Positions 18,770 to 48,316 of a stretch of DNA of 64,000 nucleotides are shown here, piece after piece. Below the pieces are notes generated by a model, which did no database searches, was not told the origin of the DNA, and was given only the letters and a program-made list of their open reading frames with translations. This stretch comes from Siphonodentalium dalli (Eukaryota > Mollusca > Scaphopoda > Gadilida > Siphonodentaliidae). Each line of letters begins with the position of its first letter. Position 1 is the stretch's first letter. A program made the translations under genes and the position numbers. Location of the stretch: positions 3,958,005 to 4,022,004 of the forward strand of contig CP136061.1 in the NCBI GenBank assembly GCA_032622095.1, written 5' to 3'.

Positions 18770-19350
18770 TCCTGCGCAATTTCCGGTGTCGGATATACAC
18801 GGTGATCAAGCGGCGTGTTATCGAGTCTTTTAAGCCCCCAATTGATTACAATGACGGGGGGTTCTAAATAGCACAAGAAGCATGACAGAACAATCAGTAC
18901 GGCTAGTGGTTTTTCATATTCCAAACAATATCTATAGTGACATTTTCTCTTCAATTGATTTCTCTGAGGACGGGACTTTCTCGACTGAACAGGGCAAGCA
19001 GCATCTCACAACTTCTTTCTAGGGCGCAATTGGGAGTCTGTGAGATAAAATTGCGACTCAGATGAATCTTTGGTCACAGAAAAGAAACCCGCAATAGGGT
19101 GATTGTATTTTGGTTTCTTTCGGTGTATATTCAACGAGTATCGTAAGCCATCAACATCGTTAACATTTACTTATTTGTCGAACAATCTCCGGCGTCAGCA
19201 GCTATCAATTGGTATGTTCTCGGTGCGTTTAAGGCTTTAATTTATTCCACAGAGGTCGAGAGTTTCTCGTCTGAATAGCACAGTATAGCACGACCGAACA
19301 TAGTTTAAGTTAATCAGAATTAGAGGAGTTTCATTTTCTAGACAATTTTG
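18770..19350. repeat. Old degenerate repeat flanking the 28-bp array (left)
   Basis: Shares ordered blocks with 23446-23880: TTGATT...GAGGACG, GCTGAATAG/GACTGAACAG, ACGAGTATCGTAAGCCATCA and GTCAGCAGCTATCAA. The minisatellite therefore lies inside an older repeat. Sequence from 17851 to 18770 shows nothing else recognisable. Confidence 0.6.
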
Positions 19351-22300
19351 TGCGTCAATACAGTCATATCAAGTGACGTGCGTCAATACAGTCATATCAA
19401 GTGACGTGCATCAATACAGTCATATCAAGTGACGTGCATCAATACAGTCATATCAAGTGACGTGCATCAATACAGTCATATCAAGTGACGTGCATCAATA
19501 CAGTCATATCAAGTGACGTTCGTCAATACAGTCATATCAAGTGACGTGCGCCAATACAGTCATATCAAGTGACGTGCATCAATACAGTCATATCAAGTGA
19601 CGTGCATCAATACAGTCATATCAAGTGACGTGCATCAATACAGTCATATCAAGTGACGTGCATCAATACAGTCATATCAAGTGACGTGCATCAATACAGT
19701 CATATCAAGTGACGTGCATCAATACAGTCATATCAAGTGACGTGCATCAATACAGTCATATCAAGTGACGTGCATCAATACAGTCATATCAAGTGACGTG
19801 CATCAATACAGTCATATCAAGTGACGTGCATCAATACAGTCATATCAAGTGACGTGCATCAATACAGTCATATCAAGTGACGTGCATCAATACAGTCATA
19901 TCAAGTGACGTGCATCAATACAGTCATATCAAGTGACGTGCATCAATACAGTCATATCAAGTGACGTGCATCAATACAGTCATATCAAGTGACGTGCATC
20001 AATACAGTCATATCAAGTGACGTTCGTCAATACAGTCATATCAAGTGACGTGCGTCAATACAGTCATATCAAGTGACGTGCGCCAATACAGTCATATCAA
20101 GTGACGTGCATCAATACAGTCATATCAAGTGACGTGCATCAATACAGTCATATCAAGTGACGTGCATCAATACAGTCATATCAAGTGACGTACATCAATA
20201 CAGTCATATCAAGTGACGTGCATCAATACAGTCATATCAAGTGACGTGCATCAATACAGTCATATCAAGTGACGTGCATCAATACAGTCATATCAAGTGA
20301 CGTGCGCCTATACAGTCATATCAAGTGACGTTCGTCAATACAGTCATATCAAGTGACGTTCGTCAATACAGTCATATCAAGTGACGTGCATCAATACAGT
20401 CATATCAAGTGACGTGCGCCTATACAGTCATATCAAGTGACGTTCGTCAATACAGTCATATCAAGTGACGTTCGTCAATACAGTCATATCAAGTGACGTG
20501 CATCAATACAGTCATATCAAGTGACGTGCGTCAATACAGTCATATCAAGTGACGTGCATCAATACAGTCATATCAAGTGACGTGCATCAATACAGTCATA
20601 TCAAGTGACGTGCATCAATACAGTCATATCAAGTGACGTGCATCAATACAGTCATATCAAGTGACGTGCATCAATACAGTCATATCAAGTGACGTGCATC
20701 AATACAGTCATATCAAGTGACGTGCATCAATACAGTCATATCAAGTGACGTGCATCAATACAGTCATATCAAGTGACGTGCATCAATACAGTCATATCAA
20801 GTGACGTGCATCAATACAGTCATATCAAGTGACGTGCGCCTATACAGTCATATCAAGTGACGTTCGTCAATACAGTCATATCAAGTGACGTGCATCAATA
20901 CAGTCATATCAAGTGACGTGCATCAATACAGTCATATCAAGTGACGTTCGTCAATACAGTCATATCAAGTGACGTGCATCAATACAGTCATATCAAGTGA
21001 CGTGCGCCTATACAGTCATATCAAGTGACGTTCGTCAATACAGTCATATCAAGTGACGTGCATCAATACAGTCATATCAAGTGACGTGCATCAATACAGT
21101 CATATCAAGTGACGTTCGTCAATACAGTCATATCAAGTGACGTGCATCAATACAGTCATATCAAGTGACGTGCGCCAATACAGTCATATCAAGTGACGTG
21201 CGCCAATACAGTCATATCAAGTGACGTGCGCCAATAGTCATATCAAGTGACGTTCGTCAATACAGTCATATCAAGTGACGTGCATCAATACAGTCATATC
21301 AAGTGACGTGCATCAATACAGTCATATCAAGTGACGTGCGCCAATAGTCATATCAAGTGACGTGCGTCAATACAGTCATATCAAGTGACGTGCGCCAATA
21401 CAGTCATATCAAGTGACGTGCATCAATACAGTCATATCAAGTGACGTGCGCCAATACAGTCATATCAAGTGACGTGCGCCAATACAGTCATATCAAGTGA
21501 CGTGCGTCAATACAGTCATATCAAGTGACGTGCATCAATACAGTCATATCAAGTGACGTGCGCCAATACAGTCATATCACGTGACGTTCGTCAATACAGT
21601 CATATCACGTGACGTTCGTCAATACAGTCATATCAAGTGACGTGCGCCAATAGTCATATCAAGTGACGTGCGCCAATACAGTCATATCAAGTGACGTTCG
21701 TCAATACAGTCATATCAAGTGACGTTCGTCAATACAGTCATATCAAGTGACGTGCGCCAATAGTCATATCAAGTGACGTGCATCAATACAGTCATATCAA
21801 GTGACGTGCATCAATACAGTCATATCAAGTGACGTGCGCCAATAGTCATATCAAGTGACGTGCGTCAATACAGTCATATCAAGTGACGTGCATCAATACA
21901 GTCATATCAAGTGACGTGCATCAATACAGTCATATCAAGTGACGTGCGTCAATACAGTCATATCAAGTGACGTGCATCAATACAGTCATATCAAGTGACG
22001 TGCGCCAATAGTCATATCAAGTGACGTGCGCCAATACAGTCATATCAAGTGACGTTCGTCAATACAGTCATATCAAGTGACGTTCGTCAATACAGTCATA
22101 TCAAGTGACGTGCGCCAATAGTCATATCAAGTGACGTGCATCAATACAGTCATATCAAGTGACGTGCATCAATACAGTCATATCAAGTGACGTGCGCCAA
22201 TAGTCATATCAAGTGACGTGCGTCAATACAGTCATATCAAGTGACGTGCATCAATACAGTCATATCAAGTGACGTGCATCAATACAGTCATATCAAGTGA

Positions 22301-23445
22301 CGTGCGTCAATACAGTCATATCAAGTGACGTGCATCAATACAGTCATATCAAGTGACGTGCGCCAATAGTCATATCAAGTGACGTGCGCCAATACAGTCA
22401 TATCAAGTGACGTTCGTCAATACAGTCATATCAAGTGACGTTCGTCAATACAGTCATATCAAGTGACGTGCGCCAATAGTCATATCAAGTGACGTGCATC
22501 AATACAGTCATATCAAGTGACGTTCGTCAATACAGTCATATCAAGTGACGTTCGTCAATACAGTCATATCAAGTGACGTGCATCAATACAGTCATATCAA
22601 GTGACGTGCATCAATACAGTCATATCAAGTGACGTGCGCCAATACAGTCATATCAAGTGACGTGCATCAATACAGTCATATCAAGTGACGTGCATCAATA
22701 CAGTCATATCAAGTGACGTGCATCAATACAGTCATATCAAGTGACGTGCATCAATACAGTCATATCAAGTGACGTGCGTCAATACAGTCATATCAAGTGA
22801 CGTGCATCAATACAGTCATATCAAGTGACGTGCATCAATACAGTCATATCAAGTGACGTGCGCCAATACAGTCATATCAAGTGACGTGCATCAATACAGT
22901 CATATCAAGTGACGTGCATCAATACAGTCATATCAAGTGACATGCGCCAATACAGTCATATCAAGTGACGTGCGCCAATACAGTCATATCAAGTGACGTG
23001 CATCAATACAGTCATATCAAGTGACGTGCGTCAATACAGTCATATCAAGTGACGTGCATCAATACAGTCATATCAAGTGACGTGCATCAATACAGTCATA
23101 TCAAGTGACGTGCATCAATACAGTCATATCAAGTGACGTGCGCCAATACAGTCATATCAAGTGACGTGCGCCAATACAGTCATATCAAGTGACGTGCATC
23201 AATACAGTCATATCAAGTGACGTGCGTCAATACAGTCATATCAAGTGACGTTCGTCAATACAGTCATATCAAGTGACGTGCATCAATACAGTCATATCAA
23301 GTGACGTGCATCAATACAGTCATATCAAGTGACGTGCGCCAATACAGTCATATCAAGTGACGTGCGCCAATACAGTCATATCAAGTGACGTGCATCAATA
23401 CAGTCATATCAAGTGACGTGCGCCAATAGTCATACCAAGTGACGT
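19351..23445 (+). repeat. 28-bp minisatellite, ~146 units, with higher-order repeats
   Basis: The conserved part of the unit is TACAGTCATATCAAGTGACG followed by a variable GTGCATCAA, GTGCGTCAA, TTCGTCAA, GTGCGCCAA or GTGCGCCTA. A 26-bp variant lacks CA. Variant order is not random. A 13-unit block of 358 bp starting at 21663 repeats exactly in order at 22021 and again, in part, at 22379. A 6-unit block (168 bp) repeats from 20834 to 21002 and a 4-unit block (112 bp) from 20302 to 20414. The array lies in intron 2 of the PAN-domain gene. It has no spacers, so it is not CRISPR. Confidence 0.95.
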
Positions 23446-25225: not shown

Positions 25226-25231
25226 TATAGT
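25226..25231. repeat. Left candidate target-site duplication TATAGT
   Basis: TATAGT directly precedes the left terminus and directly follows the right terminus (33733-33738). If the terminal repeat is taken one base shorter, the duplication can be read as 8 bp, ATATAGTT. Confidence 0.6.
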
Positions 25232-25244
25232 TGATGATATACCG

Positions 25245-25470
25245 CCCAGTTGGGGGCAGTCTAGACAGTTTGACCTATATTCTCTGCAGGACCCCAGTTG
25301 GGGGCAGTCTAGACAGTTTGACCTATAATCTCTGCAGTTGGTGTCAGTCTATGCAGTTTGACCTAGGTCATCATAGGTCATGACCTACTTTCTCACTAAT
25401 TTACATAATCCTAGGTCATCATATGTCATGACCTATTTGAGGTCATGTGCTAGATGATCTGTAGGGCACC
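25245..25470. promoter_or_regulatory. Left subterminal repeats with AGGTCA half sites
   Basis: Two full ~49-bp units (CCCAGTTGGGGGCAGTCTAG...CTCTGCAG) and a third diverged one are followed by several AGGTCA words. AGGTCATGACCT at 25375-25386 is a perfect 12-bp palindrome identical to the classical palindromic nuclear-receptor response element. As subterminal repeats these are more likely transposase-binding sites; receptor binding is only a possibility. Mirror copy at about 33494-33719. Confidence 0.55.
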
Positions 25471-25544
25471 GCTTTCGGTCCACCCGCGTATAATGAACGG
25501 AATATTATCTACATGTATATTACGTGAGGACCTTGATGAACAGG

Positions 25545-25955
25545 AGGTAGCTTCAGTCTTGAATGTTAAAGTGACATTCGGTACTCATAATGTGAATTTA
25601 AAAGGAAACTAGGCACCCACTGTAGATGATTGTTAAAGTGACACTAGGCACTCACTGTGGATGATTGTTAAAGTGACACTCGGCACTCACTGTGGATGAT
25701 TGTTAAAGGGACACTCGGTATTCATAAAGTGAATTTAAAAAAGGAAACTAGGCACCCACTGTAGATGATTGTTAAAGTGACACTGGGCACTCACTGTGGA
25801 TGATTGTTAAAGTGACACTCGGCACTCACTGTGGATGATTGTTAAAGGGACACTCGGTACTCATAAAGTGAATTTAAAGGGACATTAGGCACTCACTGTG
25901 GATGACTGTTAAGGTGACACACGGCACACAATGTTAAAGTGACACTCGCAGTGAA
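25545..25955. repeat. 35-bp repeats, left arm
   Basis: Units built on CACTGTGGATGATTGTTAAA followed by GTGACACTCGGCACT, interleaved with an AAAGTGAATTTAAAAG variant. Mirror of 33040-33400. Confidence 0.85.
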
Positions 25956-25974
25956 AAACTTTATTCTTTTTAAA

Positions 25975-26100
25975 AAAATGAAAAATTTCCAAAATTTCCA
26001 AAATTTCCAAAATTCAAAAAACTCAAAAATTTCAAAAACTTCAAAAATTTCAAAAATTTCAAAAAATTTCAAAAATTTCAAAAAACAAAATCAAAATCGA
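25975..26100. repeat. 9-bp TTTCAAAAA array, left arm
   Basis: Complement of the TTTTTGAAA array in the right arm, shorter here. Phe/Lys-rich frames over it are artefacts. Confidence 0.9.
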
Positions 26101-26107
26101 GAAAAGA

Positions 26108-26842
26108 TTAAATAGAGGAGAGGGGAAAGACCAACTGAGCAAGTGAGGAGATGGGGAAAAGAGCAAATGGGCAAGTGAGGAGAGGGAAAGAGGAAGTGAG
26201 CAAGTGAAAAAGAGCAAATGAGCAAGCGAGGAGAGGGAAAAGAGCAAGTGAAAAAGAGCAAAAGAGCAAACCACCAAGGGAAAAAGAGCAAGTGAGCAAG
26301 GGAAAAAGAGCAAAAGAGCAAGGGGAAAAGAGCAAGTGAGCAAGTGAGGAGAGGGAAAAAGAGCAAGTGAGGAGAGGTAAAAGAGCAAGTGAGCAAGTGA
26401 GGAGAGGGGGAAAAGAGCAAGTGAGCATGTGGGGAGGGGAATAAGAGCAAGTGAGCAAGTGAGGTGGGGAAAAAAGAAAAGAGCAAATTAACAAGTGAGG
26501 AGAGGGCAAAAGAGCAAGTGAGCAAGTGCAAAAGAGCAAACGACCAAGGGTAAAAGAGCAAGTGAGCAAGAAGAAAAGAGCAAGGGTAAAGAGCGAGTGA
26601 GCAAGTGAGGAGAGGGAAAAAGAGCAAGTGAGAAGATGGAAAAAGAGCAAGTGAGGAGAGGGAAAAAAGAGCAAGTGAGCATGTGGGGAGAGGGAACAAG
26701 AACAATTGAGCAAGTGAGGTGAGGGAAAAAGAGCAAGTGAGGAGAGGGAATAAGAGCAAGTGAGCAAGTGAGGTGAGGGAAAAAGAGTGAGTGAGCAAAT
26801 GAGGAGAAGGAAAAAGAGCAAGTCAACCATCTTGGCTACCAC
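26108..26842. repeat. GA-rich array, left arm
   Basis: Repeats of GAGCAAGTGAGCAAGTGAGG and AGAGGGAAAAA. Strictly purine-biased on the plus strand. Long Leu/Ser/Pro frames on the minus strand (up to 244 aa) come from the repeat. Confidence 0.9.
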
Positions 26843-26899
26843 CCCAATATGAATATATAACGAAGTCGATAATAACAGTTTGATGAAGTTTATTAAAAT

Positions 26900-27655
26900 T
26901 TAATCATCGTCTGACTCTTTAACCTTTAGATTTATTTCCAAGAGTTTCTTGAATTTTCTCATGGCTTCATCCGCAGCCCATTCATTATTATATCCGAGTT
27001 TTGTCAGCTTGACCATTTTCTTCATGATAGTGTTATGTATGGGCGATGTTTTCAATCGATGCTGGTATTCTATCAATCGTCTGTAACTTTTGAGAAAGAG
27101 TTCAAAATCTGTGTCGATGCATTCTAGTTGAGCTTTTTCCTCGGCCTCTTCTTCCGGCATGCTCTCTTCTTTCATTAATTGATCAACTTTATCTGACCAC
27201 TCTTCCATCGCTTCCGTACCGTTTCTAACGAGTTGAAACATACTTTTGAATGTATCCATCTCGTTGACACATTTCGCAGCTTTCTTACAGCCGATTACCG
27301 CACTACTACCGGCGAAGCTATTATCTGACGAATCTGATATCATTTCCTGTTCATCTTCGTCGGAATCTATATCCGTCTCTAGATCATACTCAGCATCTTC
27401 GTATTGACTGAATACATCGTTCTTCGACGGTGTTCCTGATATAACTCCGTGTTTACCATTCTTAGCTGATATCATTTCCCGTTCATCTTCATCCGAATCT
27501 ATATCCGTTTCTCGATCATACGCATTATCTTTGTATCGACCGAAGGTATCGTTATTCGATGATGTTCCTGACATAACTCCGTGTTTACTATTCTTATGTC
27601 TTTGTAGATTGTAGTTCGTCGATAATATCTTCCCGCACAAATGGCACCCGTGCAT
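26900..27655 (-). CDS. C2H2 zinc-finger/acidic protein, left copy
   Basis: 251 aa. Residues 4-25 form one C2H2 finger (C4, C7, H20, H25). Residues 24-67 and 68-111 are two copies of a 44-aa acidic repeat, each with ETDIDSDEDE and EMIS. Residues about 120-250 are predicted helical and charged (EEWSDKVDQLMKEESM, EEEAEEKAQLE, MRKFKKLLEINL). No catalytic motif; a DNA-binding regulator is the simplest guess. It lies 0.27 kb downstream of the PC4-like gene on the same strand, with its own copy of the shared promoter (27708-27799). AATAAA follows the stop (26889-26894). It differs from the right copy at four residues (K42 here, E42 there; R/S and T/A in the LVxNGxEAM stretch; K/E near the C terminus) plus a few silent sites. 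Proteins of this finger-plus-acidic type recur, as I remember, in marine invertebrate gene sets near mobile elements. Confidence 0.75.
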   Translation of the reverse strand: MHGCHLCGKILSTNYNLQRHKNSKHGVMSGTSSNNDTFGRYKDNAYDRETDIDSDEDEREMISAKNGKHGVISGTPSKNDVFSQYEDAEYDLETDIDSDEDEQEMISDSSDNSFAGSSAVIGCKKAAKCVNEMDTFKSMFQLVRNGTEAMEEWSDKVDQLMKEESMPEEEAEEKAQLECIDTDFELFLKSYRRLIEYQHRLKTSPIHNTIMKKMVKLTKLGYNNEWAADEAMRKFKKLLEINLKVKESDDD

Positions 27656-27707
27656 TGTCTCGAATTATGGGAAGAACTATCGTCCTTATACGAGCGAAAA
27701 GATGAGC

Positions 27708-27799
27708 GAATATGGTGTGGTATTATAAACTCACGCGTTCGTACTTCTATTTTTCGTTTAGAGTTGTTGTTCTCAGGTAAAAACAAATTGGCGGCCCCC
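27708..27799 (-). promoter_or_regulatory. Shared promoter module upstream of zinc-finger gene (left)
   Basis: Mirror of 31109-31200: GGGGGCCGC, then AACTCTAAACGAAAAATAGA, GGTACGAACGCGT and a TTTATAATA TATA-like box followed by CCACACC. Start codon about 50 bp downstream. Confidence 0.65.
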
Positions 27800-27925
27800 T
27801 GTCACCGTCCTTGGTAGGGATTGATTAATCGAGTGATAATTTAATGAGCGTTTGTATATGACGCGTATAAGGTCAAATGAATAACGAACGTACGTACATG
27901 AATTATTATTTAATCAAAATTTCAT

Positions 27926-28459
27926 CTAATTGCCCGTGCAACACGTATCGCATAGCATATACGATTCTTGATTGTCGTGACTGAACGAGCACGGTGTGAA
28001 CTCAGTCCAGTCGGGTATTGTCTCTGAAATGTCACTCTTTAGTTCACATAAATTCTGGAATTCTTGAACAGTCAAACAGATTCCACGTTTCGACGGTTTC
28101 ATCACGTCTTCCATAGTTTTATAATAGTCTCGTATATGCACCATCTGAAAATATTGACTATAGCATAAAAATGTCTTATTCCCGATATGAAATTCAGCAG
28201 ATTTCCCCTCTGTTATAGCCGAGTGCATATCACCAGTGAATGAGCAAAAGTTATACCAGCGATTCTTGTCCATAGACATTCCTTTAAGTCCCGGATATAA
28301 TCCATCAACCCAACTACGTATATCAATACGTATTTTGCCTTTAAATTCGCTGACATTTGCGAAAATTTGACTCCCCCAGTTGATGGCTGAAATTTTTTCC
28401 TTCCATATCTTAAGGTTTCTGCAGTAATGAATATATTGTGTAATGAACTCGCGTTTATT
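27926..28459 (-). CDS. Tandem PC4-like DNA-binding protein, left copy
   Basis: Identical in protein to the right copy (30449-30982), described there. The open frame runs 177 codons from 28459, but the first in-frame ATG is at 28279 and would cut the first PC4-like unit in two. A GAAAATTAG acceptor-like word directly precedes the open frame, so I infer a short upstream coding exon. The minus-strand 90-aa frame at 28213-28485 lies in another frame over the same DNA and is probably not used. Confidence 0.65.
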   Translation of the reverse strand, partial: NKREFITQYIHYCRNLKIWKEKISAINWGSQIFANVSEFKGKIRIDIRSWVDGLYPGLKGMSMDKNRWYNFCSFTGDMHSAITEGKSAEFHIGNKTFLCYSQYFQMVHIRDYYKTMEDVMKPSKRGICLTVQEFQNLCELKSDISETIPDWTEFTPCSFSHDNQESYMLCDTCCTGN

Positions 28460-28527
28460 CTAATTTTCAACCAATCAAAATGCATAATATTAACGTGTTC
28501 CAGACACGTTTCATTTCTAATTCTAGA

Positions 28528-28629
28528 GAATGCGGTGCGGTATTATATAAACTCGACGCGTCCGTACCTCTATTTTTCTTTTAGAGTTATTGTTCTTATT
28601 TTAAAAAATAATTGGCGTGCGCGGCCCCC
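28528..28629 (-). promoter_or_regulatory. Shared promoter module upstream of PC4-like gene (left)
   Basis: Mirror of 30279-30380. The TTTATATAA box lies near 28543-28551. Confidence 0.65.
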
Positions 28630-28691
28630 TCCCCTCCCCTTTTTCGGTGTGGGGTTTTCTTTCGTAAGGGGGGGGTCGTCCGTCGAAAAAA

Positions 28692-30217
28692 CAAAAAGAT
28701 TATTTTTTAAGACTCTTTTTGCTCAGTTGCTGTTTCCCCCTCTCCCCTATTGCTTACTTGCTCTTTCCCCTATCCTCACTTGCTCATTTTCTACTTCACA
28801 TATTGCTCACTTGCTCAGTTGCTCTTTTTCCCCTATTGCTCAGTTGTTCTTTTTCCTCCCCTATTGCTCACTTGCTCTATTCCCATCTCCTCACTTGCTC
28901 ATTCCCTATTGCTCACTTGCTCTCCTCTCCTCCCCTATTGCTCACTTTCTTTTTCCCCTCCCCATATTGCTCACTTGCTCTTTTTCCCTCCCCCCTATTG
29001 CTCCTCAGTTGTTGTTCTTCCCTCCCCTATTGCTCACTTGCTCTATTCCCCTCTCCTCACTTGCTCATTCCCCTATTGCTCACTTGCCATTCTTCCCCCC
29101 TCCCCTATTGCTCACTTGCTTTTTTCCCTCCCCATATTGCTCACTTGCTCTTTTCCCCTCTCCCCCTATTGCGCACTTGCTCTTTTTCCCTCTCCCCCTA
29201 TTCACACAGTTGCTCTCCTTCCCTCCCCTATTGCTAAATTGTTCTCTTTCACCTCTCCTTACTTGCTCAGTTGCTCTTTTCTCCTCCATTATTGCTCACT
29301 TGCTCTTTTCCCTCTTCTCACTTGCTCTGTTCCCTATTGCTCAGTTGTTCTTCTTCCCCTCCCCTATTGCGCACTTGTTCTATCCCCCCCCCCACTTGCA
29401 CATTCCCCTGTTCACTTGATTTTCTTCCTCTTCCCTATTGCTCACTTGCTTTTTTTTCTTCTCCTACCCATATTGCTCACTTGCTCTTTTTTCCTCGCAT
29501 CACTTGCTCTGTTCCCACATTGATCAGTTGCTCTTCTTCCCCTCCCCTATTGCTCAGTTGCTCTTTATTTCCCTATTGCTCAGTTGTGCTTCTTCCCTCA
29601 CCCTTTTGCTCACTTGTTCTTCTTCCCCTCCCCTATTGCTCACTTGCTCTTTTTCCCTTTCTTCACTTGCTCAGTTGCTCTTTATTTCCCTATTGCTCAG
29701 TTGTGCTTCTTCCCTCACCCTTTTGCTCACTTGGTCTTATTCCTCTCCCCTATTGCTCACTTGCTCTTTTTCCCTCTCATCACTTGCTCAGTTGCTCTTT
29801 TCCCTCTCCCATGATGTTTTTTCCCTATTGCTACGTTTCTCTTCTTCCCCCTCCCCTATTGCTCATTTGCTCTTGTTTTACTCTCCTCACTTGCTTAGTT
29901 GTTTTTTTTTTGCCCCTCCTTACTTGCTCAGTTGCTCTTCCCCCTCACTACTATCGCTCACTTGGTCTTCTTCCCTATCCTCAATGCTGAGTTGTTCTTT
30001 TTTCCCTATTGCTCAGTTTCTCTTCTTCCCCCTCCCCTATTGCTCATTTGCTCTTTTTTACTCTCCTCACTTGCTTAGTTGCTTTTTTTCCCCTCCTCAC
30101 TTGCTCAGTTGCTCTTCCCCCTCACTACTATTGCTCACTTGCTCGTTTTCCCTCACCTCTATTACTCAATTGCACTTTTTCCCTCTCCCCTATTGCTCAC
30201 TTGCTCCTTTTCCCTTA
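28692..30217 (+). repeat. Central CT-rich array between the two arms
   Basis: About 1.5 kb built on CCCCTATTGCTCACTTGCTC and TTTTTCCCTC words, pyrimidine-rich on the plus strand. This is the same family as the arm arrays but with an added CCCTATTGCTCAGTTG variant. Leu/Ser/Pro-rich frames of 170-330 aa on the plus strand are by-products. It occupies the place where a transposase or other core genes would be expected. Confidence 0.9.
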
Positions 30218-30278
30218 TTTTTTCGACGGACGATCCCCCCTTACGAAAGAAAACCCCACACCGAAAAAGGGGAGGGGA

Positions 30279-30380
30279 GGGGGCCGCGCGCGCCATTTAT
30301 TTTGTTAAATAAGAACAATAACTCTAAAAGAAAAATAGAGGTACGGACGCGTCGAGTTTATATAATACCGCACCGCATTC
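30279..30380 (+). promoter_or_regulatory. Shared promoter module upstream of PC4-like gene (right)
   Basis: GGGGGCCGC, AAGAACAATAACTCTAAAAG, AAAAATAGAGGTACGGACGCG and a TTTATATAA box at 30357-30365 followed by TACCGCACC. About 80% alike to 31109-31200 over ~95 bp although the downstream genes are unrelated. It is therefore a reused promoter, not a gene duplication. Confidence 0.7.
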
Positions 30381-30448
30381 TCTAGAATTAGAAATGAAAC
30401 GTGTCTGGAACACGTTAATATTATGCATTTTGATTGGTTGAAAATTAG

Positions 30449-30982
30449 AATAAACGCGAGTTCATTACACAATATATTCATTACTGCAGAAACCTTAAGA
30501 TATGGAAGGAAAAAATTTCAGCCATCAACTGGGGGAGTCAAATTTTCGCAAATGTCAGCGAATTTAAAGGCAAAATACGTATTGATATACGTAGTTGGGT
30601 TGATGGATTATATCCGGGACTTAAAGGAATGTCTATGGACAAGAATCGCTGGTATAACTTTTGCTCATTCACTGGTGATATGCACTCGGCTATAACAGAG
30701 GGGAAATCTGCTGAATTTCATATCGGGAATAAGACATTTTTATGCTATAGTCAATATTTTCAGATGGTGCATATACGAGACTATTATAAAACTATGGAAG
30801 ACGTGATGAAACCGTCGAAACGTGGAATCTGTTTGACTGTTCAAGAATTCCAGAATTTATGTGAACTAAAGAGTGACATTTCAGAGACAATACCCGACTG
30901 GACTGAGTTCACACCGTGCTCGTTCAGTCACGACAATCAAGAATCGTATATGCTATGCGATACGTGTTGCACGGGCAATTAG
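30449..30982 (+). CDS. Tandem PC4-like DNA-binding protein, right copy
   Basis: An open frame of 177 codons starts right after a TAG at 30446-30448 that doubles as an AG acceptor (GAAAATTAG). The first half (about residues 33-75) contains NVSEFKGKIRIDIR, SWVDGLYPGLKG and MDKNRWYNF. The second (about 97-140) contains CYSQYFQMVHIRDYY, MKPSKRGICLT and EFQNLCEL. Both follow the PC4/Sub1 pattern: strand-forming FKGK/IDIR, then a PGKKGI-type turn and an Lx-x-W/F-x-x-L helix. PC4 domains bind single-stranded DNA and act in transcription, so a DNA-binding or regulatory role is inferred. The C-terminal tail is Cys-rich (CDTCC). The first ATG (30629) would leave only 117 aa with a broken first domain, so a spliced upstream start is likely. 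The plus-strand 90-aa frame at 30423-30695 is in another frame. Confidence 0.68.
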   Translation, partial: NKREFITQYIHYCRNLKIWKEKISAINWGSQIFANVSEFKGKIRIDIRSWVDGLYPGLKGMSMDKNRWYNFCSFTGDMHSAITEGKSAEFHIGNKTFLCYSQYFQMVHIRDYYKTMEDVMKPSKRGICLTVQEFQNLCELKSDISETIPDWTEFTPCSFSHDNQESYMLCDTCCTGN

Positions 30983-31108
30983 ATGAAATTTTGATTAAAT
31001 AATAATTCATGTACGTACGTTCGTTATTCATTTGACCTTATACGTGTCATATACAAACGCTCATTAAATTATCACTCGATTAATCAATCCCTACCAAGGA
31101 CGGTGACA

Positions 31109-31200
31109 GGGGGCCGCCAATTTGTTTTTACCTAAGAACAACAACTCTAAACGAAAAATAGAGGTACGAACGCGTGAGTTTATAATACCACACCATATTC
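31109..31200 (+). promoter_or_regulatory. Shared promoter module upstream of zinc-finger gene (right)
   Basis: GGGGGCCGC, AAGAACAACAACTCTAAACG, AAAAATAGAGGTACGAACGCG and a TTTATAATA box near 31179-31187 followed by CCACACC. The start codon of the zinc-finger gene is at 31253. Confidence 0.7.
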
Positions 31201-31252
31201 GCTCATCTTTTCGCTCGTATAAGGACGATAGTTCTTCCCATAATTCGAGACA

Positions 31253-32008
31253 ATGCACGGGTGCCATTTGTGCGGGAAGATATTATCGACGAACTACAAT
31301 CTACAAAGACATAAGAATAGTAAACACGGAGTTATGTCAGGAACATCATCGAATAACGATACCTTCGGTCGGTACGAAGATAATGCGTATGATCGAGAAA
31401 CGGATATAGATTCGGATGAAGATGAACGGGAAATGATATCAGCTAAGAATGGTAAACACGGAGTTATATCAGGAACACCGTCGAAGAACGATGTATTCAG
31501 TCAATACGAAGATGCTGAGTATGATCTAGAAACGGATATAGATTCCGACGAAGATGAACAGGAAATGATATCAGATTCGTCAGATAATAGCTTCGCCGGT
31601 AGTAGTGCGGTAATCGGCTGTAAGAAAGCTGCGAAATGTGTCAACGAGATGGATACATTCAAAAGTATGTTTCAACTCGTTAGCAACGGTGCGGAAGCGA
31701 TGGAAGAGTGGTCAGATAAAGTTGATCAATTAATGAAAGAAGAGAGCATGCCGGAAGAAGAGGCCGAGGAAAAAGCTCAACTAGAATGCATCGACACAGA
31801 TTTTGAACTCTTTCTCAAAAGTTACAGACGATTGATAGAATACCAGCATCGATTGAAAACATCGCCCATACATAACACTATCATGAAGAAAATGGTCAAA
31901 CTGACAAAACTCGGATATAATAATGAATGGGCTGCGGATGAAGCCATGAGAAAATTCAAGAAACTCTTGGAAATAAATCTAAAGGTTGAAGAGTCAGACG
32001 ATGATTAA
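31253..32008 (+). CDS. C2H2 zinc-finger/acidic protein, right copy
   Basis: 251 aa with the same layout as the left copy: a finger at residues 4-25 (C-x2-C-x12-H-x4-H), two 44-aa acidic repeats at 24-67 and 68-111, and a helical C-terminal half. The ATG is chosen because it immediately precedes the finger and lies ~65 bp after the TATA-like box. A 95-aa frame (31122-31409) overlaps it in another frame and starts within the promoter, so I do not accept it. AATAAA at 32014-32019 follows the stop. The intact frame in both arms despite several substitutions suggests recent insertion or gene conversion. Confidence 0.75.
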   Translation: MHGCHLCGKILSTNYNLQRHKNSKHGVMSGTSSNNDTFGRYEDNAYDRETDIDSDEDEREMISAKNGKHGVISGTPSKNDVFSQYEDAEYDLETDIDSDEDEQEMISDSSDNSFAGSSAVIGCKKAAKCVNEMDTFKSMFQLVSNGAEAMEEWSDKVDQLMKEESMPEEEAEEKAQLECIDTDFELFLKSYRRLIEYQHRLKTSPIHNTIMKKMVKLTKLGYNNEWAADEAMRKFKKLLEINLKVEESDDD

Positions 32009-32079
32009 ATTTTAATAAACTTCATCAAACTGTTATTATCGACTTCGTTATATATTCATATTGGGGTGGTAGCCAAGAT

Positions 32080-32818
32080 GGTTGACTTGCTCTTTTTCCT
32101 TCTCCTCATTTGCTCACTCACTCTTTTTCCCTCACCTCACTTGCTCACTTGCTCTTATTCCCTCTCCTCACTTGCTCTTTTTCCCTCACATCACTTGCTC
32201 ACTTGCTCTTATTCCCACTCCCCACATGCTCACTTGCTCTTTTTCCCCTCTCATCACTTGCTCACTTGCTCTTTTTCCCTCTTCTCACTTGCTCTTTTTC
32301 CCTCTCCTCACTTGCTCACTCGCTCTTTATCCTTGCTCTTTTGCTCTTTTCCTCTTGCTCACTTGCTCTTTTTCCCTTGGTCGTTTGCTCTTTTGCACTT
32401 GCTCACTTGTTCATTTGCCCTCTCTTCACTTGCTAATTTGCTCTTTTCTTTTTTCCTCACCTCACTTGCTCATTTGCTCTTATTCCCCCTCCCCACATGC
32501 TCACTTGCTATTTTCCCCATCTCCTCACTTGCTCACTTGCTCTTTTCCCTCTCCTCACTTGCTCTTTTCCCCTCTCCTCGCTTGCTCACTTGCTCTTTTC
32601 CCCTTGCTCTTTTGCTCTTTTTCCCTTGCTCACTTGCTATTTTTCCCTTGGTCGTTTGCTCTTTTGCTCTTTTTCACTTGCTCTTTTCCCTCTCCTCACT
32701 TGCTCATTTGCTCTTTTTCACTTGCCCACTTCCTCTTTCCCTCTTCCCACTTGCCCATTTGCTCTTTTCCCCATCTCCTCACTTGCTCAGTTGGTCTTTC
32801 CCCCTCTCCTCTATTTAA
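32080..32818 (+). repeat. CT-rich array, right arm
   Basis: Repeats of TTGCTCACTTGCTC and TTTTTCCCTCTCCTCAC. Complement of 26108-26842, with small differences in unit number and order. Hydrophobic frames up to 300 aa on the plus strand are artefacts. Confidence 0.9.
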
Positions 32819-32844
32819 TCTTTTCTCGATTTTGATTTTGTTTT

Positions 32845-33010
32845 TTGAAATTTTTGAAATTTTTGAAATTTTTGAAATTTTTGAAATTTTTGAGTTTTTT
32901 GAACTTTTTGAACTTTTTGAATTTTTTGAATTTTTTGAAATTTTTGAAATTTTTGAAATTTTTGAGTTTTTTGAAGTTTTTTGAATTTTGGAAATTTTGG
33001 AAATTTTTCA
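32845..33010 (+). repeat. 9-bp TTTTTGAAA array, right arm
   Basis: About 17 units, some changed to TTTTTGAAC or TTTTTGAG. Longer than the left-arm copy, and so one source of the 56-bp arm-length difference. Confidence 0.9.
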
Positions 33011-33039
33011 TATTTTTTAAAAGAATAAAGTTTTTCACT

Positions 33040-33400
33040 GCGAGTGTCACTTTAACATTCATCCACAGTGAGTGCCTAATGTCCCTTTAAATTCACTTTA
33101 TGAGTACCGAGTGTCCCTTTAACAATCATCCACAGTGAGTGCCGAGTGTCACTTTAACAATCATCCACAGTGAGTGCCTAGTGTCACTTTAACAATCATC
33201 TACAGTGGGTGCCTAGTTTCCTTTTTTAAATTCACTTTATGAATACCGAGTGTCCCTTTAACAATCATCCACAGTGAGTGCCGAGTGTCACTTTAACAAT
33301 CATCCACAGTGAGTGCCTAGTGTCACTTTAACAATCATCTACAGTGGGTGCCTAGTTTCCTTTTAAATTCACATTATGAGTACCGAATGTCACTTTAACA
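33040..33400. repeat. 35-bp repeats, right arm
   Basis: Units based on CTTTAACAATCATCCACAGT with GAGTGCCGAGTGTCA. Mirror of 25545-25955. Confidence 0.85.
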
Positions 33401-33493
33401 TTCAAGACTGAAGCTACCTCCTGTTCATCAAGGTCCTCACGTAATATACATGTAGATAATATTCCGTTCATTATACGCGGGTGGACCGAAAGC

Positions 33494-33719
33494 GGTGCCC
33501 TACAGATCATCTAGCACATGACCTCAAATAGGTCATGACATATGATGACCTAGGATTATGTAAATTAGTGAGAAAGTAGGTCATGACCTATGATGACCTA
33601 GGTCAAACTGCATAGACTGACACCAACTGCAGAGATTATAGGTCAAACTGTCTAGACTGCCCCCAACTGGGGTCCTGCAGAGAATATAGGTCAAACTGTC
33701 TAGACTGCCCCCAACTGGG
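33494..33719. promoter_or_regulatory. Right subterminal repeats with AGGTCA half sites
   Basis: Mirror of the left end. AGGTCATGACCT at 33578-33589. The 33581-33772 minus frame over it is not a gene. Confidence 0.55.
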
Positions 33720-33847
33720 CGGTATATCATCATATAGTTATCTGGATCCCAGAACCGACCAGAATATGACACATGTCAAGAGAAAATCAGTATAGGTATA
33801 ATTTGATTTTTCGAATCACAATGGGCCTGTAGCATTCTACTCATTAC

Positions 33848-39260: not shown

Positions 39261-41863
39261 TTATAGAAATAAATGTTTTGGTCGTCGAATTCCACCAAAC
39301 TGATATATATATAGATTTGATTGTTCGTCATTGATCCTGGAATAATTATTTAAGGAATTAACATTGTTGTGTCCGGAAATCTGCACAATCTGTGTTGGTG
39401 GAATTCCTTCATCATTCAGGGTCTGTACTAAGTGTTTCCTGACGCTGTATGGAGTTGGTCGCTTGTCACTTACAATATCTGCATCTGCCAACATATTCTT
39501 CATGATCCCGTATAAAGAGTTAATACCAAGGGCGTTCCTTTTGTACCAATCACCCCGCATCCATTCTTGGTGATTCACAGCGAGGAAGAAGGGGCTGTCA
39601 GCTTGGCACATGTCGATCTGTCGTTTAGCCGCATATAGTTCGTAGAGAGAAACAGGATCACGGGTTGAATCATCCAGGGAATAGGCTCGTTGTATGGTTT
39701 GGCTAATCTCTCGTGGATTACTGACAGTCCTCGTTTTTGTGTTACGCTCTTGGCTGTAAACAAGGTATTTATGACCAGTCTCGTCAACTTTTAGCTCAAT
39801 ATCTCCCCATCGTAATGCATGAGTCTCGGTTCCTGTTCTCATTCCGAAATATAAGGCGCACACCACTGGGGAGGATCTATTCCTCGAAATGTGGTGCTCT
39901 CCCGAGCAATATTTACGTGCTTAGCGAGCAACTATTCCGGTGTTCTGTCACATTTTGCTCATTGTGCGACAGAGATGACATGCGTGGGTAATAAACACGC
40001 ATGTTAGTAATGTTTTAAACGCAAATATTGGACGAATGTATACGGGATGGACGTGGCAAAGAAGGTGAGTAATATATGTTGTAATATTATGCTACTATAT
40101 TAGCATTCTGCCCAGTAATATAAATAAATTACTCGATATTTTGCGTTTTTTTGGAAATTCGTCACTTCAACGGCGTATTACCGACTTAATACTGAATACT
40201 GTGTATTGTAACTTTGAATGCCTGTTCCTCAATACATTCCTGAAGTCAATGCAACATGAAAATATCATTAATAACATACCAAATCGAAGAAAACGACCAT
40301 AAAATAGGTCTACATGTGTATTCCGGTGGTTTACTGAGTCTTTGTGTGTTGAATAATCGTTATTCCGGTGCTGAAATCCTACTAAAACGACCTCGTATAA
40401 AGCCACATTGGTGATTATTTGTTCAGAAATGATAATACACGCCATGCCGGGATACAAATGAAGTAGCTCACCCGTTCTGTAGTTAATATAAAGTCAATTA
40501 TTTTGACAATGCGCTTATGCTCACAAAATAGTCAACTTAATAAACTATATATAATATATTACATACTATTTGTGAACACTTGTGCAACAGTTTCTGTTGG
40601 GGATATAACAAGGATAATGACCTATTAATTGCCATAAACCAACCAACTATGTCACATTCCGATTGGCCACAATTACAGTTACACAATAAAAATACGTTCG
40701 ACAATCATTTACTGAACAAGAATTGAGCGTTTGTTATCAGTTATATCCAATAGAACACATGGAAATAATTATAGATTACATAGTTCATTCATATACTCGC
40801 CATTGCGTTTGCTACCCCTGAAATACGTGATTAAACGAACAAAGTATGCCTTTATGGACGTATATGCAACGCAAAATAACATATTAAGTTTATTACCTCC
40901 TAACCAACGCAAAATATTTAGTATTTATTCGCTTTTTTGCTTGTTATAGCACAATACATGATCCTGAGGAGAGCACTTGACTATTGGGAGAGCACTGAGC
41001 ACTCTGTAAAGTATCGGAATATAATTATAAAATGTCGATTTACGGGCATTCCTATGGGATTTCTTACATTTTCTCGCATATCAATGTGAACATCAATATA
41101 AATAATCCATTGGTTAAAAGATACCTGCGATATACTTACATAATCTGTAATTTTTCTTCACTTTTGTGCGGCGAAAATAAAAAATCCCCAGTAAAGCACC
41201 GGAATGTCACGATAAAAATTGCTCAAAAAATTGGTAGAGCACCACATTTTAAGGAATAGATCCTCCCCAGTGGCGCACACCAGCCACATAGAATTATGAA
41301 GTGACTTTGGATATGTAGGTTCCAGAACTCCTTTCTCGTACATGATGTCCATATCCATGTTAGAAATTGGATCCGCCGCCATTGGCTTGTTGTCTTTACC
41401 TTGTGATTTTAAGTGTTTTTGTTTGTTCTTTGATGTTATTTTTAGCTTCGAAATAGATATATATCAAATGAGGATAGAAATGCTCGTAAACTCACAGGTT
41501 CATATTCTGATCCATCCTGTTTTCTGACGGAATGACAAAATTGCACCAGTATTCACACAGCTCCTACGGCGGGATAAATTCCAGTTTCCTTGTTTCGCCG
41601 CTACTTTTGAGAAATGTCAGCAGCAAATTCACATCATAGGCCGTTTAACGAGCAGTGTTGACATTTTGTTGTGTCTCGATGAACGCCTGGACATAACCGG
41701 GCAAATCCTCGACGAATCGGGAAACGACGGCTGACACGATCGAAGTAGCGGGTTCCGTGGGTGCTTCATGTGTTGTGTTGCCAGCAGTATGACCAAGGGA
41801 AATGTGTTCCAGTTCATCGTCTGACAAAGTATCCATCCATAAATCTTGCATTGCCATTTTCAT
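39261..41863 (-). pseudogene. Crypton-like (DUF3504-type) tyrosine recombinase, broken
   Basis: The C-terminal catalytic half is intact at 39261-39866. Numbered from the ATG at 39866 it has the first catalytic Arg (R10 in FGMRTGTE...LRWGDI), Y140-S-V-R143 where most relatives have H-x-x-R, H166 (ISGHNNV) and the Tyr nucleophile Y175 (SLNNYS). The N-terminal part continues on the same strand beyond an insertion (39864-41272): residues leading up to HNSMWLVCA at 41281-41382, and a further N-terminal segment at 41645-41863 ending VNTAR. Between these the frame carries a TAA (41645-41647), a TAG (41564-41566) and at least one frameshift. It is therefore dead from point damage as well as from the insertion. 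Cryptons move by tyrosine recombinases; the host gene families derived from them look alike, so an element origin is probable, not certain. Confidence 0.75.
39864..41272. mobile_element. 1.4-kb hAT-like non-autonomous element with 8-bp TSD
   Basis: Ends are inverted repeats of about 37 bp (CACTGGGGAGGATCTATTCC at both termini, then ATGTGGTGCTCT with a two-base difference). They are flanked by identical 8-bp direct repeats GCGCACAC at 39856-39863 and 41273-41280. ATTCCGGTG words recur near both ends, like subterminal hAT repeats. Removing the element and one repeat restores the local reading frame of the recombinase, which proves insertion. No transposase frame inside. hAT is inferred from the 8-bp duplication; P-type elements share that length. 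Confidence 0.82.
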
Positions 41864-47956: not shown

Positions 47957-48316
47957 CTATTATCAAGGCTGTTTAACATATTATCAAGGCTGTTTAACAT
48001 ATTATCAAGGCTGTTTAACATATTATCAAGGCTGTTTAACATATTATCAAGGCTGTTTAACATATTATCAAGGCTGTTTAACATATTATCAAGGCTGTTT
48101 AACATATTATCAAGGCTGTTTAACATATTATCAAGGCTGTTTAACATATTATCAAGGCTGTTTAACATATTATCAAGGCTGTTTAACATATTATCAAGGC
48201 TGTTTAACATATTATCAAGGCTGTTTAACATATTATCAAGGCTGTTTAACATATTATCAAGGCTGTTTAACATATTATCAAGGCTGTTTAACATATTATC
48301 AAGGCTGTTTAACATA
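47957..48316. repeat. 21-bp minisatellite, ~17 perfect copies
   Basis: Unit starts TATTATCAAGGCTGTTTA. Being 7 codons long and stop-free, it yields open frames on both strands (MLNSLDN and GCLTYYQ repeats), which I do not regard as genes. Copies are essentially identical, so it is very young. Confidence 0.95.

Follow-up and report, generated by a model that had tools for sequence, protein, structure and literature searches.

A near-palindromic, PC4-bearing transposable element in the scaphopod Siphonodentalium dalli, possibly a derivative of Polinton-like transposons

A 64,000-nt stretch of the genome of the scaphopod mollusc Siphonodentalium dalli (assembly GCA_032622095.1, contig CP136061.1, positions 3,958,005 to 4,022,004 of the forward strand; called the window below) contains a near-palindromic element of 8.5 kb (25232-33732) with two genes in each arm. 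The left arm (3,460 bp, 25232-28691) and the right arm (3,518 bp, 30215-33732) are inverted copies with 96% identity over 3.5 kb; in a MAFFT alignment they differ by 50 mismatches and 9 gaps. A CT-rich array of ∼1.5 kb (28692-30214) occupies the palindrome axis. The termini are of the TG...CA type: the element begins with TGATGATATACC, closes with the inverse of TGATGATATACC and is flanked on both sides by the 6-bp target-site duplication TATAGT (25226-25231 and 33733-33738). In the left arm the 329-bp outer end (25232-25560, + strand) is followed by 139-bp/35-bp tandem repeats (25560-25934) and by low-complexity 9-bp and ∼31-bp repeats of the GAGCAAGT type (25968-26823). A first-pass annotation of the window had described the 3.5-kb arms with their two genes each, the matching termini and the duplication, all of which hold; its suggestion that the terminal repeat itself is the gene cassette is literally true.

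The two genes are co-oriented within each arm and divergent between the arms. The outer one encodes a C2H2/acidic protein of 251 amino acids (aa) (26900-27655, − strand; 31253-32008, + strand), the inner one is a PC4-domain frame (a 177-aa open frame at 27926-28459, − strand; 30449-30982, + strand). The Pfam scan covered the right-arm copies, from which the domains of the left-arm copies are inferred. The right-arm PC4 protein matched PF02229 at 2.2e-20, with two PC4 stretches within a single protein; the right-arm C2H2/acidic protein has one finger (PF00096 at 8.4e-4, under the curated cut-off). The gene had earlier been called a tandem PC4, and the two stretches bear this out, but the part that matches the start of the gene in its relatives sits in another frame, as judged by eye, in both arms alike; the window PC4 gene is therefore probably damaged and may be inactive. 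Comparison of the window PC4 with 5.8 billion proteins gave eight candidates, none at E ≤ 0.001. An AlphaFold2 model of the C2H2 protein was set aside, its mean pLDDT being 46.8.

Copies with the same ends are numerous. In the genome searched (2.23 Gb in 9 contigs) the 329-bp window end had 41 matches (40 of 1163 candidates scored), so it is not a chance sequence; the end of another copy, L017, used as query gave 40 matches (40 of 1211 candidates scored). Both ends were read in 10 window-family copies, and every one of these sits in a perfect 6-bp target duplication of its own sequence (eight were identified by script, that of the 14.3-kb copy on C3 separately, and that of L014/L015, GCCGTC, by eye). 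The first-pass annotation had asked for just such copies. Those read range from 3.98 to 14.4 kb, and the longest same-ended pairs among the best 40 of the 1163 and the best 40 of the 1211 candidates are ∼14.4 kb apart. At least nine end pairs recur near 14.3 kb. Two 14.3-kb copies were read and proved to be near-perfect palindromes with almost no spacer, in which the part of the C2H2 gene that encodes its first 50 residues adjoins the axis. The arms of the 14.3-kb copy on C6 are 99.7% identical, and its sole open reading frame (ORF) of at least 90 aa is a 102-aa frame containing this C2H2 fragment; in L009, which covers half of a 14.3-kb copy, 52 ORFs of at least 45 aa were listed. Since the C2H2 fragment adjoins the axis in the 14.3-kb copies, these have the ends of the window type with a different axis.

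Some copies contain further insertions. Positions 2461-5603 of L014 are occupied by a nested retroelement (RVT_1 at 1.4e-39, endonuclease at 1.9e-9), and the large extra ORFs of L014 and L021 that were scanned, four in number, proved to be reverse transcriptase and endonuclease pieces of nested retroelements. In L021 (C9:202342300-202352000) one left end is followed by three right ends with the identical duplication AGTGTT: part of the element and the nested reverse-transcriptase piece are tandemly multiplied along with the flank.

Inverted pairs of PC4 genes occur well beyond the window family. A PC4 protein search yielded 732 candidate places, 150 of which were scored; merging of split hits left 146 loci. 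Adjacent PC4 genes within 15 kb of each other were inverted in 34 of 34 pairs and direct in none, and 68 of the 146 loci belong to such pairs. DNA on both sides was compared in 14 cases (the window, L013, L015, L017, L019, one copy of family A, seven copies of family B and the C3 element). In family A (C8:96.57 Mb) the arms are 99.24% identical over 4,319 bp and the PC4 genes are convergent. In the family-B palindrome at C4:164407921-164425657 (17,737 bp), two stretches of the arms, of 5,078 bp and 2,179 bp, show 100.000% identity, and another 714 bp close to the axis show 99.6%. Its arms carry a PC4 gene (2.1e-13) and a gene for a BIR-RING (IAP-like) protein (BIR at 3e-17), its ends are of the TGCTGCATA type and its target duplication is TAACAT; perfect and different 6-bp duplications flank all seven family-B copies. 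The BIR-RING genes of the two arms lie at L022 2473-3201 and L023 1878-2606, and the long frame is open in both arms of six of the seven copies. A family-B insertion is adjoined by a shorter C2H2 gene of the same family as that of the window (L029 925-1500, 192 aa), which is followed by a repeat array of similar reading-frame composition.

Outside the palindrome families, PC4 was found next to a Polinton-type polymerase. At all four such PC4 sites read (L042, L043, L045 and L046-L048) the PC4 gene is divergent from PolB-like ORFs. These match PF03175 at 4.6e-8 and 1.4e-7 in L042 (C2:9.2 Mb), at 1.5e-8 in L046 and at 7e-6 in L045 (25.6 bits versus a cut-off of 25.8); L043 had no Pfam match, yet it gave a tblastn match to the L046 polymerase at 2.9e-19. 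Of 7993 entries scored in a search with the PolB N-terminal ORF, one matched (2.3e-4), a protein with PF03175. Beyond the L042 polymerase, in L044, lies a capsid-like ORF of 400 aa with 46 relatives at E ≤ 1e-3 (the best at 1.3e-84); the four named ones are 'F54H12.2-like' proteins from Gigantopelta, Amphiura, Ostrea and Argopecten. The match of this ORF to the Pfam DJR-like family reached only 0.034, and neither the capsid-like protein nor the L042 PC4 had relatives in viral_contigs. An integrase-like tail in L044 matched Chromo at 0.0011, under the cut-off, and has a motif recognized by eye; a ligase zinc-finger match at 0.012 was taken as chance. Judged by its gene content, the C2:9.2 Mb locus appears to be Polinton-like. 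A further arrangement is seen at C3:53.892-53.908 Mb, where one PolB is flanked by two PC4 arms (2.96 kb at 99.3% identity and another 1.3 kb at 96%).

The PC4 genes of the two settings are related. The window PC4 region has 82-84% DNA identity with L045 and L047/L048 over 648 bp, and the ratio of non-synonymous to synonymous substitution rates (dN/dS) between them is 0.23 and 0.26; against L042 the ratio is 0.15, with dS saturated at 2.0. For the C2H2 gene dN/dS is 0.45 between the window and L029, and ranges from 0.15 to 0.93 among close copies, which show few changes.

The ends of a copy, and in family B also its arms, mostly resemble each other more closely than those of other copies. In family B a 1.7-kb arm segment was compared in seven copies: the arms of one copy differ at 0, 4, 0, 1, 0, 0 and 2 positions (C4a, C2, C9, C5, C1a, C1b and C1c, respectively), different copies differ at 4 or more, and the nearest relative of an arm is its own partner in all seven. 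Substitutions specific to a copy are present in both of its arms in six copies (4, 1, 3, 2, 2 and 45 substitutions; C1b has none). The terminal 78 bp of the two ends are identical in six of the seven copies and one base apart in the other; the own partner is strictly nearest in five, with two ties (C4 and C1a carry the same variant), and 0 of 100000 random pairings were equally tight. Positions 10-25 of the family-B ends (L029/L026, L049-L060) vary in blocks that seemingly reassort between copies while the first nine bases are fixed, and variation in the window-family ends is similarly located. In 9 of 10 window-family copies compared over 300 bp, the two ends are strictly closer to each other than to any other end, and the remaining copy shows a tie; again 0 of 100000 random pairings were equally tight.

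The L017 arms differ by 49 substitutions in 3,138 aligned bases, and in both the window and L017 the arms have drifted by ∼1.5% while the target duplications are intact. In the two 14.3-kb copies we saw singleton substitutions only, plus one shared gap in the C3 copy. BLAST identities of the outer arms were 90% for L017 and 89% for L018; a deep divergence of the L017 arms, suggested by the former value, was rejected, the differences being mostly gaps in tandem repeats. Given the drift in the window and L017, arms do not stay identical once inserted; this argues, short of proof, that their likeness arises mainly during or before insertion.

The interpretation we tentatively favour, with slightly less belief than doubt, is that the window carries a non-autonomous 'snap-back' form derived from a Polinton-like transposon and copied through a hairpin. 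The element is a palindromic, gene-bearing and probably Polinton-derived satellite. One end of a Polinton-like (virus-like, self-synthesizing) transposon would have been joined head to head with its own inverted copy. Retroviral-type integrases are indicated by TG...CA ends together with a constant 6-bp stagger, as is generally known; such an integrase, supplied in trans, would join the ends of the element to the target. Multiplication would proceed as linear DNA by a related protein-primed PolB. Strand displacement by protein-primed PolB enzymes yields single strands, as in adenovirus and phi29; a displaced strand of the element, being self-complementary, could fold into a hairpin, or the polymerase could snap back at the axis. 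One half would then template the other, so that the ends, and often the arms, of a new insertion would be alike at the start. Protein-primed replication of Polinton DNA has, to our knowledge, not yet been directly seen. PC4, a single-strand binder, would serve the replication of the element: according to PMC4350104, single-stranded DNA is bound by PC4 in a hairpin-like shape, and an unwinding activity is described for Sub1/PC4 proteins. The hairpin step, the use of Polinton integrase and polymerase and this role of PC4 are inferred.

The earlier suggestion that the element derives from a large virus-like DNA transposon is thus the best reading, because further copies with the same ends and 6-bp duplications exist and because, at other loci of this genome, PC4 neighbours a Polinton-type PolB; the accompanying idea that the CT-rich array replaced a core is a guess. 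A bolder form of the proposal, which we regard as doubtful, is that of a class of satellite transposons that persist in mirror-image form. Snap-back products of Polinton-like viruses would have founded independent lineages on several occasions, each with its own single-strand-binding PC4 gene; they would move through a self-folded single strand, so that one template serves both ends of every new insertion, and would exploit the parental polymerase and integrase. We found no paper on such elements; the literature searched lacks most subscription journals, so absence in print is not proven.

Several observations weigh against a snap-back origin. Longer same-ended copies with core genes, which the first-pass annotation had proposed to look for, did not appear: no TGATGATA-ended copy with an integrase, polymerase or capsid gene was present among the best 40 of 1163 and the best 40 of 1211 candidates, and tblastn with PolB, capsid-like and integrase-like queries had no match within L009-L021, the same-ended copies examined, or within the window. 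The sole match, integrase-like (L014 13-135; 46% to the L044 tail, 8.5e-9), lies outside the left end of the 12.2-kb copy. At the PolB-bearing loci, no rve core was detected in L044 (Pfam, 21 plus-strand segments of at least 38 aa, L044 1-4100), the four pieces read at C2:9.2 Mb, 27 kb in all, yielded no inverted ends, and the flanks of the PC4-PolB-PC4 element have only 4 bp in common (CTCT, by eye). The TG...CA ends of the window family (TGATGATA) and the TGCTGCATA ends of family B differ from the AG-type ends given for vertebrate Mavericks in PMC8097293. Pairing within copies is also less strict by other measures. Over 200 bp, 8 of 10 window-family copies have their own ends nearest (L018 is tied, and the L014/L015 ends are not mutual nearest); in the C2H2 segment the own arms are nearest in two of four two-armed copies (L013 and L019). 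In that segment the 5 differences of the window find matches in other copies; the count for L017 is 20, a figure probably inflated by the pairing of different units of an internal 132-bp repeat. Finally, the ends of Galileo, a cut-and-paste transposon, are mostly matched per copy too, according to PMC3573991; matched ends alone are therefore no proof of a hairpin route.

The leading alternative is an ordinary cut-and-paste transposon of the foldback type with very long inverted ends, which would have captured its PC4 and C2H2 genes from a Polinton and whose arms would be kept alike by recombination or gap repair between the two ends. We consider this unlikely, even though the window arms hold tandem repeats, the long, internally repetitive inverted ends and variable middle are those of Foldback and Galileo, and both ends of a Galileo copy usually belong to one phylogenetic group, except in 12 chimeric copies without matching duplications (PMC3573991). 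The lack of a same-ended Polinton also suits it. The duplication is of the wrong length, however: 7 bp flank Galileo in the same paper, 6 bp the elements here. A single capture is insufficient as well, since several families with other ends or axes carry inverted PC4 pairs. No transposase-like ORF was recognized in the full ORF lists of the window and of one 14.3-kb copy or among the ORFs of at least 100 aa in L011-L021, no dedicated transposase model having been run over all of them.

A less probable alternative still, and one that we would expect to fail, holds that the route of transposition has no bearing on the palindrome: once a copy sits in the host chromosome, gene conversion would make its two arms alike. 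Conversion is known from other large palindromes and would equally place copy-specific substitutions in both arms. The L017 arms, with just the 49 differences counted above, are closer than the 90% BLAST identity suggested, so the case against in-place conversion is weaker than it first seemed. Against it, the ∼1.5% of substitutions in the window and L017 arms, with duplications intact, indicate that any conversion in place is incomplete; the ends, moreover, match although they abut unrelated DNA at every locus. The weakest alternative, an assembly fold-back artefact, which the first-pass annotation had named as one of its refuting cases and which the perfectly identical stretches of the family-B arms could suggest, is scarcely credible and was rejected, as the window arms differ by substitutions and gaps, 6-bp duplications are present at all 17 elements of the window family and family B for which both ends were read, and constant sizes recur (the end pairs near 14.3 kb).

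If the snap-back reading is true, many inverted PC4 gene pairs of this genome would be mobile-element cargo and not host genes. In the bay scallop, PMC9223095 lists five PC4 genes, two of them single-exon (212 aa). Copy-specific end variants occurring in pairs on recent palindromes would constitute a genomic record of copying before integration, and the elements would suggest a route from virus-like transposons to gene-bearing satellites.

Other repeats surround the element. An ORF at 39261-39920 (− strand) matches Phage_integrase (PF00589, 3.2e-10) and DUF3504 (2.9e-11) and is a tyrosine-recombinase-like fragment, likely of another transposon; a tail resembling it, by eye, occurs at L045 669-1085. 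A 28-bp satellite (147 copies, 95% matches) extends over 19350-23445, a perfect 21-bp tandem array (17 copies, 100% matches) over 47958-48316, and a dispersed repeat at 524-1485 has 89% identity to L029 3920-4911 on another contig.

Among known systems, Polintons (Mavericks, adintovirus-like elements) have the 6-bp target duplication and long inverted ends in common with the window element. The likeness continues at the related loci, with their PF03175 polymerases and, at one locus, the 'F54H12.2-like' capsid-like ORF beside PC4. The window element, in contrast, has no polymerase, integrase or double-jelly-roll capsid gene, and its arms make up most of its length; the inverted repeats of intact vertebrate Mavericks, at 46-1,447 bp in PMC8097293, are shorter than these arms. 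As core genes and AG-type ends are absent, the element is not filed as a Polinton.

Foldback, Galileo and Tetris share with the window element very long, internally repetitive inverted ends around a variable middle, whereas the arms here carry ORFs, and PC4 is under purifying selection in the relatives. Galileo has a transposase of the P superfamily and a 7-bp duplication; with 6 bp instead of 7 and no transposase recognized, the window family is not filed there either. The snap-back genomes (SBGs) of adeno-associated virus (AAV) may offer the same palindromic design: in 5′- and 3′-SBGs one genome end is duplicated head to head and the genes of that end are kept. Here the PC4 side of the Polinton-like loci matches the palindrome arms, and a same-ended parent was not found in the copies read. 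AAV SBGs are packaged viral subgenomes, as described in PMC8235507, whereas the window family consists of multicopy chromosomal insertions with target duplications.

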